A DNA stretch of 33,196 nucleotides from assembly GCA_947470025.1 (NCBI GenBank), contig CANIRU010000013.1, forward strand, positions 1 through 33,196. Direction: 5' to 3'. The position numbers and the translations under genes are program-made. Position 1 is the stretch's first letter. Each line of letters begins with the position of its first letter. Origin of the DNA: Chloroflexota bacterium. GTDB taxonomy: Bacteria > Chloroflexota > Dehalococcoidia > UBA2979. The notes below the pieces were generated by a model that saw only the letters and a program-made list of their open reading frames with translations, was not told where the DNA came from and searched no databases. Positions 16,377 to 24,397 of the stretch are shown piece after piece.

Positions 16377-16478
16377 CCGGGAGTCTGAGGGGCGCAGCCC
16401 CTCAGACTTGGTTCTCTTCCCTCTGAACCCCTCCCGCGCCGGGAGGGGTAGGGGTGGGCCGCCCAACGCGGCCACCCC
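16377..16478 (+). repeat. REP-like multi-hairpin intergenic element, copy C
   Basis: Three perfect or near-perfect hairpins: 16382-16408 (12-bp stem, GCA loop), 16428-16448 (CCCCTCCCG-CGC-CGGGAGGGG), 16451-16478; aligns with the reverse complement of 4396-4497. Confidence 0.8.
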
Positions 16479-17643: not shown

Positions 17644-18030
17644 TCAGCGCGAACGGATCTCCGTCGCCTGCCAGCTCGCGCACTTCCACGCGCCGGCGTC
17701 GTTGATCCAGACGCAGAGGAATGTCGTCTCTAGGTTGCGGTGGTTGTCCACCGGCCCCATCTCCTGGTGCCCAACGCCCTGCACGAGGACGACGCCCGGG
17801 TACACGCGGTAGGACTCGTCGGTGATCGTCCATACGTGGTAGCGGCGGCTGCCGTTGCGGAACGACTCCAGCCACTCCTCGCGCGTGTCCGCGTGCCCGC
17901 TGCTCGCGTGCGTGAACGTGTAGTCCGACGCGACGAGGCCCTCGAGCGCGTCGGCGTCGGCCGCGACGGTGCCGTCCAGCCAGCGCTGCAATGTCGCGCG
18001 GACCTCGCGGGTGGTGTCCGTGTTCACCAT
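17644..18030 (-). CDS. Nuclear transport factor 2/SnoaL-like family protein
   Basis: 128 aa; ALEGLVASDYTFTHASSGHADTREEWLESF, AWKCASWQAT; TAATG stop/start overlap with the upstream gene. Confidence 0.8.
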   Translation of the reverse strand: MVNTDTTREVRATLQRWLDGTVAADADALEGLVASDYTFTHASSGHADTREEWLESFRNGSRRYHVWTITDESYRVYPGVVLVQGVGHQEMGPVDNHRNLETTFLCVWINDAGAWKCASWQATEIRSR

Positions 18031-19046
18031 TACGGGATCAGCACGCCGCGGCCGAAGAACGAGCTGGCATCGAGCCGCCGGTTGGCCTCGACGACGTCGT
18101 CCAGCGCCATGGGATCGATGATCGACTTCACCTTGCCCTCTGAGACGAGCGTTAGCGAGTCGGCGAAGTCCGCCATGTCGCCGGGACCGGCGCCGCGGAG
18201 CTGCGTCTCCTTGCCGAAGAGGAACGCCGGGTAGAGGTCGATCTTCTGGCGGTACACCTGCCCCGTGAACACGTAGCGCGCGTTCCGGGCGAGCGAGCGG
18301 AAGATCGGGCCGAACAGGTCGGGGTGCCCGACGTTATCGAGGACGACCTGCGGCCCCCCATCGGTCACCTTCACGATCTCTTCCCAGTAGTCCTTCCCCT
18401 GTGCGACGACCACATCGTCCGCGCCGGCCGCGCGCAGTTGGTCGACCTTCGAGGGCGACGAGGTCACCGCGATCGCGCGCCCGCCCAGCGCCTTCGCCAC
18501 CTGCATCCCGTGCAGGCCCAGGCCGCCGCCCGCGCCGGTGATCAGCACGTTCTCGCCCGGCTTCACCTGTCCCACATTGCGCAGCGCGTTGAGCGTGGTG
18601 CCCACCGTGCACGCGATCGTCGCGGCGTCCTTCAGGTCGATGTTCTCGGGCACCTTCAGTAGACCCGGTACGGGGAGCGCGACGTACTCGGCCCAGCCGC
18701 CGTAATTGAACTTCCGTCCCTGCTCGCACAGGATCTCGCGGCCGATGCGGCAGTTGGTGCACTCGCCGCAGTGCGTCTGCTGCTTCGTTGCGACGCGGTC
18801 GCCAATGGCGAAGCCGGTCACCTTGTCGCCCAGCGCGACCACGGTACCCGCGATCTCGTGCCCGATCGTGAAGGGGATGCCGACGTGCGGGCGCGTGAGC
18901 CCGTTGCGGTCGGACTGGTCGTGGCCGCAGAGGCCGACCGCGGCGACCTTCACGACGACCTGCATCGAGGTCGGCTCCGGCTGCGGGACATCCTCGATCT
19001 TCACGTTCTCGGGGGCGCCCTGTTCGTATACGCGGGTGGCCTTCAT
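18030..19046 (-). CDS. Zinc-binding medium-chain alcohol dehydrogenase
   Basis: Start at 19046 preceded by GAGGAGG; VGLCGHDQSDRNGLTRPHVGIPFTIGHEIAGTV, structural-zinc cysteines CGECTNCRIGREILC, GAGGGLGLHGMQVAKALGG. Confidence 0.93.
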   Translation of the reverse strand: MKATRVYEQGAPENVKIEDVPQPEPTSMQVVVKVAAVGLCGHDQSDRNGLTRPHVGIPFTIGHEIAGTVVALGDKVTGFAIGDRVATKQQTHCGECTNCRIGREILCEQGRKFNYGGWAEYVALPVPGLLKVPENIDLKDAATIACTVGTTLNALRNVGQVKPGENVLITGAGGGLGLHGMQVAKALGGRAIAVTSSPSKVDQLRAAGADDVVVAQGKDYWEEIVKVTDGGPQVVLDNVGHPDLFGPIFRSLARNARYVFTGQVYRQKIDLYPAFLFGKETQLRGAGPGDMADFADSLTLVSEGKVKSIIDPMALDDVVEANRRLDASSFFGRGVLIP

Positions 19047-19187: not shown

Positions 19188-19236
19188 TGGGTGACCCAAC
19201 TGTCAGTAGACGCCGGATCATTCAGATTCTTATAAC
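19188..19236 (+). promoter_or_regulatory. Promoter P1 with upstream palindrome (candidate operator)
   Basis: TAGACG (19207-19212)-18 bp-TATAAC (19231-19236); perfect palindrome TGGGTGACCCA at 19188-19198. Confidence 0.6.
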
Positions 19237-19291
19237 CGCTTGAACCGGAACCCCTCGGGGGTACCTGCGCGACTGCCCGGAAGGATCGGCT

Positions 19292-20533
19292 ATGCCGAAG
19301 GTGTTCGAGGGATTCACGGTCATCGAGCTGGCGGACCGCCGGAACCAGTTCGTCGGGAAGCTGATGTCGGACTCGGGCGCCCGGGTCATCCAGATCGAGC
19401 CGGTCACCGGCAGCGACGGCCGCTTCACCGGCCCGTACGTGAACGACCAGCCGGACCCGAACAAGTGCCTCGACTACTGGTGGTACAACACCGGCAAGGA
19501 GAGCCTCGCGATCGACGTCACGAGGCTCCCCGGCCAGGATCTGCTGCGCCGGCTGCTGGCCACGGCTGACCTGTTCGTGGAAAGCACCCGCCCCGGCACC
19601 CTCGCGCGGTACGGCCTCGACTACGCCACGGTGTCGAAGACCAACCCGCAGCTGATCTACGCGTCTCTCACCGACTTCGGGCAGGACGGCCCGTGGGTCG
19701 GCTACACGATGAACGATTCGGCGCACCTCGCCCTCGGCGGGCAGATGGGCAGCACCGGGTACTCCGAGCCGAAGACGACGCCGATCGGCGGGCAGGGCCG
19801 GCAGGCCTACAACATGGCGTCGATCATGATGCTGCACACCATCACGGCGGCGCTCTTCGAGCGCCTCGGCAGCAACCTCGGTCAGCACCTCGACGTTTCG
19901 ATCCACGACTGCTGCGCGGTGTGCACGGAGCGCGCCGTGTCCTACTGGATGTGGTACGACGAGCCGTTCCTGCGCCAGACCGGCCAGCACGCCGCGCCGA
20001 CGTACCGCACCAGCAACCAGATGCAGGCCGCAGATGGCCGCTACGCCATCGTCACCACGCCGCGCTTCAACCAGAACTCCTGGGTGAAGATGATCGACTG
20101 GATGAAGGAGAAGGGCGTCGCGGGCGAGCTCGAAGAGCCGCAGTGGATGGACGAGTTCTACCGCGCCGAGCAGGTGCGTCACGGCACCGCCGTCGCGGAC
20201 GGCATCAAGCGCCTCATCGCCACCGAGACCGCCGAGCAGGTCTTCCTGCGTGGGCAGGGCATGGGCCTCCCGTGGGTCGACATCCGCCGTCCCGAGGAGA
20301 ACTTCGGCAAGGATCACTACAAGGAGCGTGGCTTCTGGGTGGACGTCCAGCACGACGAGATCGGCAAGGCCGTGCCGTACCCGAAGGGGTTCTACCTCAG
20401 CGACGAGCTGGGGATGCGCCCGGAGCGCCGCGCGCCACACCTCGGTGAGCACACGAGCAGCATCCTCACGAAGGACCTCGGCCTCAGCACCGCGCAGGTC
20501 GACATTCTCACCTCGACGGGAGTCGCACGATGA
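19292..20533 (+). CDS. CaiB/BaiF (class III) CoA-transferase family protein, subunit 1
   Basis: 413 aa; GFTVIELADRRNQFVGKLMSDSGARVIQIEP, LFVESTRPGTLARYGLDY. Confidence 0.92.
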   Translation: MPKVFEGFTVIELADRRNQFVGKLMSDSGARVIQIEPVTGSDGRFTGPYVNDQPDPNKCLDYWWYNTGKESLAIDVTRLPGQDLLRRLLATADLFVESTRPGTLARYGLDYATVSKTNPQLIYASLTDFGQDGPWVGYTMNDSAHLALGGQMGSTGYSEPKTTPIGGQGRQAYNMASIMMLHTITAALFERLGSNLGQHLDVSIHDCCAVCTERAVSYWMWYDEPFLRQTGQHAAPTYRTSNQMQAADGRYAIVTTPRFNQNSWVKMIDWMKEKGVAGELEEPQWMDEFYRAEQVRHGTAVADGIKRLIATETAEQVFLRGQGMGLPWVDIRRPEENFGKDHYKERGFWVDVQHDEIGKAVPYPKGFYLSDELGMRPERRAPHLGEHTSSILTKDLGLSTAQVDILTSTGVAR

Positions 20534-21831
20534 CTGGACCGGGACTGCCGCCGGGCTTCCTGAACGGCGTTCGCATCATCGACTTCACGTGGTACGCCGT
20601 CGGCCCCTGGGGGCCGCGGATGCTCGCGCCGTACGGCGCCGAGGTCATTCACATCGAGCCGCCGCACCAGCCGGACGACCACCGCTTCGACTTCCGCCCC
20701 GCGCGCGGCATCAACGCGAAGGACCAGAAGGTCTGGCAGGAGGAGGGCTCGCCGCCCTTCTACACCGGTCCGTATTGGAACCAGCTGCACAACGGCAAGC
20801 TTGCGATCTGCCTCAACACCCGCCACCCGGAGGGGATGCGGCTGCTGCACGAGCTGATCAAGAAGAGTGACGGGCTCGCCGAGAACTTCTCCGGCAACGT
20901 GCTCGACTCCTGGGACCTCACCTGGGAGAACCTGCTCGCGCTGAACCCGAAGCTCACCTACCTCAGCACGGCCGGCTTCGGGCACAAAGGACCGTGGGGC
21001 GGCTTCCGGACGTTCGGCCCGTCGGCGCAGGCCGGCAGCGGCCTCACCTACACCTCGGGCCTGCCGGGCCGCGAGCCGGCCGGATGGGGCTACTCCCACA
21101 TGGACATCGCCGGGGGCTGGATCGGCGGCCTCGGCCTGATCATGGGCCTGCTCCAGGCGAAGCGGACCGGCAAGGGCGTCCGCGTGGACTACGCGGTGAC
21201 CGAGGCGGCCATGTCGCTGCTCGGCCCGTACTTCCTCGATTTCCAGGTCAACGGCCGCGGCACGGACCGCCCCGACTTCCCTCCCGGCAACCACTCGGAG
21301 TGGCCGGGCCTCGCCCCTCACAACACCTACCGCTGCGCCGGCATCGACCGGCAGGGGCAGGACTGGTGGGTGTTCATCGCCGCCGAGACGAACGAGCAGT
21401 GGGAAGCGCTGTGCGACGTCATGAAGAAGCCGGAGCTGTTGACGGACCCGCGCTTCGCGACGAACGAGGCGCGCGTCAAGAACCAGGACGTCCTCGACGA
21501 GATCATCTCGACGTGGACGGCGCCTCGACGTCGCTACGAGATCCAGGACGTGCTGCAGTCCGTCGGCGTGATCGCAGTCGCGGTGCAGGGCGCCGAGGAC
21601 CGCGTCGACTACGACCCGCAGCTCCGCCACCGCGACGTGTACCCGGTGATCCAGCATCCGGAGATCGGCGAGTTCGAGATCGAGGCGTTCCCGCCGAAGA
21701 TGTCGCGCACGCCCGCGAACAACTCCCTCCGCTCCCCGCTCATCCGCGAGCACACCGACTACGTCTTTGGTGAGCTTCTGGGCATGAGCGAGAAGGAGAT
21801 CGCGGAGTACAAGGACCAGGGCATCATCTAG
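20530..21831 (+). CDS. CaiB/BaiF (class III) CoA-transferase family protein, subunit 2
   Basis: 433 aa; ATGA overlap with subunit 1; VRIIDFTWYAVGPWGPRMLAPYGAEVIHIEPP, GWGYSHMDIAGGWIGGLGLIMGLLQAKRTGKG. Confidence 0.93.
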   Translation: MTGPGLPPGFLNGVRIIDFTWYAVGPWGPRMLAPYGAEVIHIEPPHQPDDHRFDFRPARGINAKDQKVWQEEGSPPFYTGPYWNQLHNGKLAICLNTRHPEGMRLLHELIKKSDGLAENFSGNVLDSWDLTWENLLALNPKLTYLSTAGFGHKGPWGGFRTFGPSAQAGSGLTYTSGLPGREPAGWGYSHMDIAGGWIGGLGLIMGLLQAKRTGKGVRVDYAVTEAAMSLLGPYFLDFQVNGRGTDRPDFPPGNHSEWPGLAPHNTYRCAGIDRQGQDWWVFIAAETNEQWEALCDVMKKPELLTDPRFATNEARVKNQDVLDEIISTWTAPRRRYEIQDVLQSVGVIAVAVQGAEDRVDYDPQLRHRDVYPVIQHPEIGEFEIEAFPPKMSRTPANNSLRSPLIREHTDYVFGELLGMSEKEIAEYKDQGII

Positions 21832-21856
21832 CCCTCGTTCGCTTCGAGGACCCCCA

Positions 21857-21890
21857 ACGGGCCGGGCGAGAGGAACTCTCCCCGGCCCGT
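21857..21890 (+). terminator. Strong hairpin downstream of the CoA-transferase operon
   Basis: ACGGGCCGGG-c-GAGAG-GAA-CTCTC-CCCGGCCCGT, 15-bp stem with a single bulge; no long T-tract. Confidence 0.75.
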
Positions 21891-21990
21891 CGGCGTGCTG
21901 CGTACTTCGTGCACATTGTCACGAACGACCGCGGCGCTCGGGCGAGATTCCTGCACGGTGAACATCCGCTTGTATCCGTGTGGCGTACTA

Positions 21991-22039
21991 GTCATGACGG
22001 AGATGTCCGTAGACGAGGCAATCCCATCGTTCCTATAAC
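21991..22039 (+). promoter_or_regulatory. Promoter P2 upstream of the ABC permease operon
   Basis: gTCATGAc palindrome, TCCGTAGACGA, TAGACG (22010-22015)-18 bp-TATAAC (22034-22039); near-identical to P3. Confidence 0.65.
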
Positions 22040-22292
22040 CGCGAGTAGTTGGCGTGACTGGATCAGCGATCGTCGGGACTCAATCGAGGCAAGCCACGTG
22101 CGGCTGGGCCTCGGCGAGCAATGCCGTATCCGCGATATCCTCGCGCGCCACAGAAGCGTGAATCGGTGGGAGGGCGGCCCCAGATCGCCCTTGCCTGACG
22201 CATAGAATGACGGCCATCGGACTGACGCCGCGGCGCGGGGAAACGCCAACGCACCAGTCAGACCGGTGGTCACCGGATTGCGGGAGGGCTAG

Positions 22293-23240
22293 ATGACCAG
22301 ATACGTGTTGCGCCGCTTGCTCGGCATGATCCCGACGCTCCTCGTGCTGTTGTTCATCGTCGTCTCACTCGTCCGGCTGCTGCCGGGAAACGTGGTCGAT
22401 ATCCTGCTCGCCGACGGACGCGCAACCGCCGAGACGAAGGCGCAACTCGCCGCCAAGCTCGGACTCGACCAGTCCTTGCCGGAGGCGTACGTCCGCTACG
22501 TCGGAGGCGTCATTCGTGGCGACCTCGGCAGTTCGCTGTGGACCGACGTCCCGGTCACGCACATGATCATGTCGCGCGCCCCCGTCACCGCCGAGGTGGC
22601 CGGCATCGCGATCCTCGTTTCCATCTTGATCTCGATCCCGCTGGGCGTGACCTCCGCGGTGCGGCAGGACTCGTTCCTCGACTACGCGCTGCGCAGCGGG
22701 TCGATCGCTGGCATCAGTCTGCCGAGCTTCGTCGCGGCGCAGGCGATTGTGGTGCTGCCGGCGCTGTGGTGGTCGAAGTCGATCCCATTCCAGTACCAGA
22801 CGTTCGCGGAGAATCCATCGCAGCACCTGATGATCATCCTGCCGGCGGCGTTCGTCCTCGGCCTGCGGCTGTCCGCCACGATCGCGCGCATGATGCGCAC
22901 GACGATGCTGGACGTGCTGCAGCAGGACTACATGCGCACGGCCCGCGCCAAGGGCCTGACGAACTTCGGCATCATCGTGAAGCACGGTCTGAAGAACGCG
23001 CTGATTCCCGTGGTGACGCTGCTGGGCCTGCAGTTCGCGGCACTCGTCGGTGGCTCCGTCATCACCGAGAGCATGTTCGCGCTGCCCGGCATCGGCCGCC
23101 TACTGCTCGATGCGATCACGCGCCGCGACTACCCCGTGATCCAGGGCGTCGTCGTCTCGGTCGGCATTCTCGTCATGGCGACCAACCTGCTCGTCGACCT
23201 CTCGTACGGCTACCTCGACCCCCGGATCCGCTACTCCTAG
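22293..23240 (+). CDS. ABC transporter permease (DppB-like)
   Basis: 315 aa; MTRYVLRRLLGMIPTLLVLLFIVVSLVRLLPGN; EAA loop RTARAKGLTNFGIIVKHGLKNALIPVVT. Confidence 0.95.
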   Translation: MTRYVLRRLLGMIPTLLVLLFIVVSLVRLLPGNVVDILLADGRATAETKAQLAAKLGLDQSLPEAYVRYVGGVIRGDLGSSLWTDVPVTHMIMSRAPVTAEVAGIAILVSILISIPLGVTSAVRQDSFLDYALRSGSIAGISLPSFVAAQAIVVLPALWWSKSIPFQYQTFAENPSQHLMIILPAAFVLGLRLSATIARMMRTTMLDVLQQDYMRTARAKGLTNFGIIVKHGLKNALIPVVTLLGLQFAALVGGSVITESMFALPGIGRLLLDAITRRDYPVIQGVVVSVGILVMATNLLVDLSYGYLDPRIRYS

Positions 23241-23291
23241 CCGAGCGCGCCCGATCGTCGAGAACATGACCATGCAGGAACGGAACCGTTG

Positions 23292-24218
23292 ATGGCAATG
23301 ACTGAAGCCGCACAGCAGTTTGGTCGATCGGTGGCCCCGCCGAGCATCCCGTACCGGGTGCTGTCGGCCACCTGGAAGTTCCTGCGCCGCAAGCCGCTGG
23401 GGGCCTTCGGCGCGGTGATCACGCTGCTGCTGATCCTGACGGCGCTCTTCGCCGACAGCATCGCCCAGTACAACCCGCTCGAGCAGAGCCAGCGCACGGC
23501 ACTGATCGCGCCGAACTCCGTGTACTGGGCCGGCACCGACCAGTTCGGACGCGACGTGTTCAGCCGCCTCGTCTACGGGGCGCGGATCTCGCTCTTCGTG
23601 GGCGTCTTTGCCGTGATGTTGGGGCTGATCCCGGGCACCGCCCTCGGCGTCCTGAGCGCGTACCTCGGCGGGACGTTCGACTACCTCGTTCAGCGCGTGG
23701 TCGACGCGATCCAGGCGGTGCCGGGCATCATCCTGCTGATCGCGATCATGGTGGTGCTGGGAGCCAGGTTCCCCGATGTTCCCTCGCAGGTGATCGTCGT
23801 GATCGCCCTCGCGTTACCGAACGCGGTCTCCGAGTCGCGCGTCCTTCGAGGCGCCAGCATGCAGGTCGCGCGCAGCGAGTACGTGATGGCCGCGCGAGCG
23901 GTGGGGGCGACGGACGTCCGCGTGATGATGAAGCACGTCCTGCCGAACATCACGTCGCCGATCATCATCCTGGCGTCGCTCGCGTTTGGTCAGTTCATCC
24001 TGGCCGAGGCGACCCTCAGTTTCCTCGGGTTCGGCATCCAGGCGCCGGCGCCGTCGTGGGGCAACATGCTTTCCGCCGAGGGCCGCGCGTACATGTTCGC
24101 CGCGCCGTGGCTGCTCTGGGGCCCGGCGATCGCGCTCAGCCTGGTCGTCTTCGGCGCGAACATGTTCGGTGACGCCCTGCGTGACGTCCTCGACCCGCGT
24201 CTGAAGGGCTCGCGCTAG
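23292..24218 (+). CDS. ABC transporter permease (DppC-like)
   Basis: About 308 aa; HxxGTDQFGRDVFSRLVYGARISL, EYVMAARAVGATDVRVMMKHVLPNITSPIII. Confidence 0.95.
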   Translation: MAMTEAAQQFGRSVAPPSIPYRVLSATWKFLRRKPLGAFGAVITLLLILTALFADSIAQYNPLEQSQRTALIAPNSVYWAGTDQFGRDVFSRLVYGARISLFVGVFAVMLGLIPGTALGVLSAYLGGTFDYLVQRVVDAIQAVPGIILLIAIMVVLGARFPDVPSQVIVVIALALPNAVSESRVLRGASMQVARSEYVMAARAVGATDVRVMMKHVLPNITSPIIILASLAFGQFILAEATLSFLGFGIQAPAPSWGNMLSAEGRAYMFAAPWLLWGPAIALSLVVFGANMFGDALRDVLDPRLKGSR

Positions 24219-24246
24219 CCTCGAGGTTCCTCATCAGTGATTCGCA

Positions 24247-24274
24247 AGCGGGGATCGAGCAATCGTTCCCCGCT
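24247..24274 (+). terminator. Hairpin downstream of the permease operon
   Basis: AGCGGGGAtCGA-GCAA-TCGtTCCCCGCT; about 11 bp with one internal mismatch. Confidence 0.6.
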
Positions 24275-24348
24275 GCGTGTCCCCCCCCGACGCGGGGCTC
24301 GCTGTCTCCAGACGTTGTGATGCACGTCACGAATGCGGTGCTGCCTCG

Positions 24349-24397
24349 ATCATGATGGGAATGTCCGTAGACGACCTTGAATCTGAGTTCCTATAAG
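24349..24397 (+). promoter_or_regulatory. Promoter P3 upstream of SBP2
   Basis: aTCATGAt palindrome, TCCGTAGACGA, TAGACG (24368-24373)-18 bp-TATAAG (24392-24397). Confidence 0.65.

Follow-up and report, generated by a model that had tools for sequence, protein, structure and literature searches.

Three operons in the window (the whole stretch of 33,196 nucleotides analysed here) and a fourth one elsewhere in the same genome are preceded by one two-block promoter signal. We put at about 0.5 the probability that the four sites, P1, P2, P3 and the fourth, form one small regulon, with promoters of the sigmaA type that depend on a dedicated regulator. The window is contig C13 of the genome G000 (2.17 Mb, 80% complete); since the genome is incomplete, sites beyond the four may be missing.

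When the pattern GTAGACG-N14-TTCYTATAA was searched, three matches without any mismatch were found in the window, with GTAGACG at 19206, 22009, and 24367. In shuffles of the window, with up to 3 mismatches allowed, the mean was 0.02 matches, and the rest of the 2.17 Mb genome gave none at up to 2 mismatches. The preliminary description had defined P1, P2, and P3 by GTAGACG, exactly 14 bases and TTC(T/C)TATAA, and this was borne out at all three. Its end points were correct, but its starts were one base late, as TC(A/C)GTAGACG begins at 19203, 22006, and 24364. The identity that it gave for P2 and P3, from TCATGA through GTAGACGA, was exactly 22/25 positions when read directly. TCATGA is indeed present in P2 and P3, but the TGAC at the same place in P1 had been overlooked, and so had the TG preceding TCMGTAGACG, which is part of the conserved block. 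The proposed elements of the three sites are as follows.

19190-19212, forward strand: proposed P1 operator, GGTGAC-N5-TGTCAGTAGACG, with GTAGACG at 19206-19212 (pattern, alignment, conservation)
19231-19236, forward strand: proposed P1 -10 box, TATAAC, 18 bases 3' of TAGACG
21993-22015, forward strand: proposed P2 operator, CATGAC-N5-TGTCCGTAGACG (pattern, alignment, conservation)
22034-22039, forward strand: proposed P2 -10 box, TATAAC (pattern)
24351-24373, forward strand: proposed P3 operator, CATGAT-N5-TGTCCGTAGACG (pattern, alignment, conservation)
24392-24397, forward strand: proposed P3 -10 box, TATAAG (pattern)

In full, the signal reads TGAY-N6-TGTCMGTAGACG-N17/18-TAYAA. The first block, TGTCMGTAGACG, was searched alone and occurred at 4 exact places in G000, each of them followed by a -10-like box. 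The three sites described before were among these; the fourth, with TACAAC as its second box, had been overlooked. It lies on a contig other than the window, upstream of an SDR gene and a second, paralogous CoA-transferase pair.

G000:C3:5538-5589, reverse strand: fourth site, CATGAC-TTCGT-TGTCAGTAGACG-N18-TACAAC (block search)

Conservation in relatives, proposed earlier as a check, was found. In a congeneric species (G001), the signal stands at the same four promoters, three times on contig C5 and once on C35, and in a third species (G005) two sites were present, both on small contigs. When the ten sites of the three species were aligned, TGA, TGTC, GTAGACG, and TA.AA were invariant, and the spacing from operator to -10 was 18 bases in 9/10 sites and 17 in the remaining one. 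An exact search for TGA-N6-TGTCMGTAGACG-N17/18-TANAA in 44 genomes of the family returned exactly these ten sites, and the core TGTCMGTAGACG-N17/18-TANAA returned the same ten only in 393 Dehalococcoidia genomes. With a profile built from the ten sites, the sites scored 36-48 bits, and the next best among the candidates scored in the 44 genomes reached 14 bits; the pattern searches are firmer, because the profile scored limited candidates per genome. The 12-mer alone had one further match, within a coding sequence (G001:C1), which was taken as chance, about 0.35 matches being expected per genome of the size of G000. The whole-genome scan, also proposed beforehand, thus placed the motif not commonly before unrelated genes but at four operons of one kind, each site lying upstream of an operon and the element being rare elsewhere.

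The blocks were compared between G000 and G001 over the four orthologous pairs of sites. The CATGAY block was 92% identical, the TGTCMGTAGACG block 100%, and the -10 hexamer 96%, against about 28% for the far-upstream flank and 58% for the 18-base spacer (ungapped). A similar contrast of blocks and flanks was seen among the paralogous sites inside a genome. Hence, the element is kept beyond its flanking sequence, and this conservation points to a function for the blocks.

The genes around the three sites of the window are listed below.

18030-19046, reverse strand: zinc-type alcohol dehydrogenase, divergent from P1 (Pfam ADH_N, ADH_zinc_N; start placed by eye)
19292-20533, forward strand: CoA-transferase family III, BbsEF-like subunit, P0002 (Pfam CoA_transf_3; best solved relative 9fn0_A)
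20530-21831, forward strand: CoA-transferase family III, the other BbsEF-like subunit, P0001 (best solved relative 9fn0_B)
22293-23240, forward strand: ABC permease of the Opp/Dpp B type, P0004, behind P2
23298-24218, forward strand: ABC permease of the Opp/Dpp C type, P0005, behind P2
24452-26218, forward strand: family 5 solute-binding lipoprotein, P0003 (Pfam SBP_bac_5), behind P3

P0001 overlaps P0002 by 4 bases. As in BbsEF, the benzylsuccinate CoA-transferase, the family III genes are adjacent, and A and B of 9fn0 are each the best solved relative of one of them; judged from these likenesses, the P1 pair appears BbsEF-like, with genes for two distinct family III subunits side by side. 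The alcohol dehydrogenase gene may have its intergenic region in common with P1. In G001, the genes behind the fourth site follow in the order SDR, CoA-transferase pair, OB-fold-like protein, thiolase-like protein, TIG protein, and solute-binding protein (SBP), the OB-fold-like and thiolase-like proteins being named by eye, and from SDR through SBP they appear to be one operon. Elsewhere in the window, a strong terminator-like hairpin of 13 pairs is present at 16381-16409, 3' of a VOC-family gene region.

P0002 had 46 matches in G000. The motif was considered as the promoter of all close CoA-transferase paralogs, and this was rejected: other paralogs, similarly close to the P1 gene, lack the motif and carry other boxes upstream. 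The motif-bearing CoA-transferases were grouped in 0/200 bootstrap trees, and the placement of the motif on the tree needs two changes. Among the paralogs, L036, L038, L040, and L047 have boxes of their own, CTTTACG...GTGCTACATGC, and L043, L052, and L053 have GTGCGnTACNATC-like ones; these groups are perhaps further promoter classes. Judged by the P1 CoA-transferase, the closest relatives of the window genome are metagenome-assembled; most of these genomes have the label Chloroflexi or Dehalococcoidia, and one comes from Lake Baikal. It may be noted that for the public bins L101, L115, L109, and L110 the species names given, Dehalococcoides mccartyi and Bordetella parapertussis, are improbable; these labels look wrong, because the first-named bin falls in the genus of the window by searches.

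To describe the general promoter, an EM model was fitted to upstream regions in 400 kb of G001. It gave a weak TTG(A/C)C-like box and TAnnnT, mostly 17-18 apart, and starts from the sigma70 consensus or from the motif converged on one profile. Hexamer counts against reversed sequence were swamped by dinucleotide bias and were left out. By eye, TAGACG-N18-TATAAC agrees at 4/6 and 5/6 positions with TTGACA and a TATAAT-like box, and no site appeared in the consensus scan. Judged by the EM profile, TAGACG and TATAAC stand at about the -35/-10 distance and GTAGACG is not the general -35. The housekeeping-type spacing noticed earlier therefore agrees with the general promoters of G001, but GTAGACG does not serve as their -35. 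An ordinary housekeeping promoter was rejected, as there are four sites per genome at most and GTAGACG differs from the general -35. An RNA leader element was rejected as well: an Rfam scan of the window gave no family match, and the P1 and P3 leaders are short. The motif occurs only at four operons of this kind, is kept across species and differs from the general promoter; the earlier suggestion of a dedicated input linking uptake and CoA activation is therefore well supported. It had named a regulator or a specific sigma factor, and of the two a transcription factor, acting on a sigmaA promoter, is favoured.

We propose that each core promoter is of the sigmaA type. Its -35, TAGACG in place of TTGACA, would be weak; the spacer has 18 bases, or 17 at one site; and in the -10, TATAAC/G or TACAAC, the usual final T is missing. 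The putative operator, CATGAY-N5-TGTCMGTAGACG, would lie directly upstream of the -35 and overlap it and, with a transcription start about 7 nt past the -10, would span about -53 to -31. Under this presumed start the leaders would be 49 nt at P1 (up to P0002), about 247 nt at P2, and 48 nt at P3. A dedicated regulator would bind the operator; it would most likely be an activator of the class II type, with its site centred near -42, and would turn on jointly the BbsEF-like heteromeric CoA-transferase, the Opp-type ABC permease pair and the solute-binding proteins; at the fourth site, it would also switch on the SDR and the second CoA-transferase pair. In class II activator geometry, a site near -42 is combined with a weak sigmaA promoter. 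Similar to CRP class II-type sigma70 promoters, the sites would have an operator near -42, an overlapped weak -35, and a near-fixed distance to the -10; unlike there, the operator sequence and the regulator are not those of a known family, and the symmetry of the operator is weak.

No regulator was recognized by eye among the listed ORFs of the window. The likeliest protein in hand is a MarR-like winged-helix protein of 150 residues encoded beside the fourth site, and we tentatively suggest it as the regulator.

G000:C3:5797-6246: gene of the MarR-like winged-helix protein, divergent from the fourth site
G001:C35:20903-21352: its counterpart, likewise divergent from the fourth site

The gene is single-copy, lies about 210 bp from the fourth site in G000, is 73% conserved in G001, and neighbours the fourth site wherever that locus is assembled, in G000 and G001. 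No equivalent was found in G002 or G003 and only distant homologues in G004; nor was it found in G005, whose assembly is also without the fourth site. As the homologues in another genus have no such motif nearby, the candidate is tied to the motif by position only. Its structural model had a low overall confidence, with helices and wing confident at residues 56-112, and the best structural matches were MarR and ArsR proteins, HcaR included (TM 0.4 over the whole chain). The predicted winged-helix fold and a gene divergent from a catabolic operon are shared with the MarR regulators of organic-acid catabolism, such as HcaR and PcaV; unlike for these, Pfam MarR_2 scored 24.6 bits, under the cut-off of 27, and the N-terminal third of the model is of low confidence. 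In G001, an ArsR-like gene lies 4 kb upstream of P1, at L064 10932-11732, with the cluster on one side and a transporter gene on the other. It was rejected as the regulator, since its match in G000 is weak, partial, and with stop codons, and no convincing counterpart.

A repressor could act instead, covering the -35 of ordinary sigmaA promoters until its ligand releases it and the operons are induced. The conserved block does overlap the -35, and winged-helix proteins of the MarR and ArsR types, whose fold the candidate is predicted to have, are mostly repressors. However, the core promoter looks weak, with TAGACG and a -10 without the last T of the TAnnnT profile, and the near-fixed distance between operator and -10 (18 in nine sites, 17 in one) suits an activator better, so that we regard a repressor as unlikely. 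Two conserved boxes at near-fixed spacing would also be explained if they were the -35 and -10 of a dedicated ECF-type alternative sigma factor; the housekeeping factor is not the only one of the sigma70 type present, and in both G000 and G001 one ECF factor was read next to an anti-sigma gene. But at 12 to 23 bases the upstream block is longer than -35 boxes usually are, the second box looks like the -10 of sigmaA, and 0/4 sites lie before a sigma gene, although ECF factors usually direct transcription of the gene that encodes them. Such a factor is thus improbable, and slightly more so is an alternative sigma with an unusually long upstream recognition block that drives only these four catabolic promoters in a small Dehalococcoidia group.

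Part of the likeness of P2 and P3 is explained by duplication. In G001, P2 is followed by an SBP gene (L065 3639-5390) and then by the permeases, and this SBP is 77% identical to the one behind P3 in the window. The ends of the long P2 leader of the window match both flanks of the SBP gene in L065, and therefore the SBP was lost in the window genome or gained in G001.

22062-22187, forward strand: part of the P2 leader without a G001 match, where G001 has the SBP gene

By this comparison, P2 and P3 probably arose by copying of the promoter plus SBP gene, which explains their 22/25 identity, whereas P1 and the fourth site are not covered by it. Common descent alone, with copies of one ancestral promoter moved along with duplicated genes and no present shared regulator, fits P2 and P3 having both stood before SBP paralogs, but is very improbable, as spacers and flanks diverged to near randomness and the blocks did not, the CoA-transferases with the motif do not form a single clade (in 0% of 200 bootstrap trees), and other close paralogs have different upstream boxes.

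Many CoA-transferase paralogs in one genome are also a feature of the CaiB/BaiF expansion in SAR202, where these enzymes were proposed to feed diverse acids into CoA pathways (PMC5395668). The main text of that paper has no mention of promoters or regulation; here, unlike there, a common promoter signal connects particular CoA-transferase pairs with a transporter. A non-exhaustive search of the regulon literature on Dehalococcoidia gave nothing evidently on such a signal, and we call the proposed regulon new, its general type being already known. In SAR202-like uncultured bacteria with dozens of CoA-transferase paralogs, the pairing of enzyme and transporter is not readable from gene content alone. 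The promoter signal of the four operons ties CoA-transferase pairs to one ABC importer and to binding proteins, and indicates a candidate regulator. Probably, one dedicated regulator jointly controls the import of some organic compound and its chemical activation, and in this small pathway module a ligand found for the binding protein would hint at what the transferase acts on.
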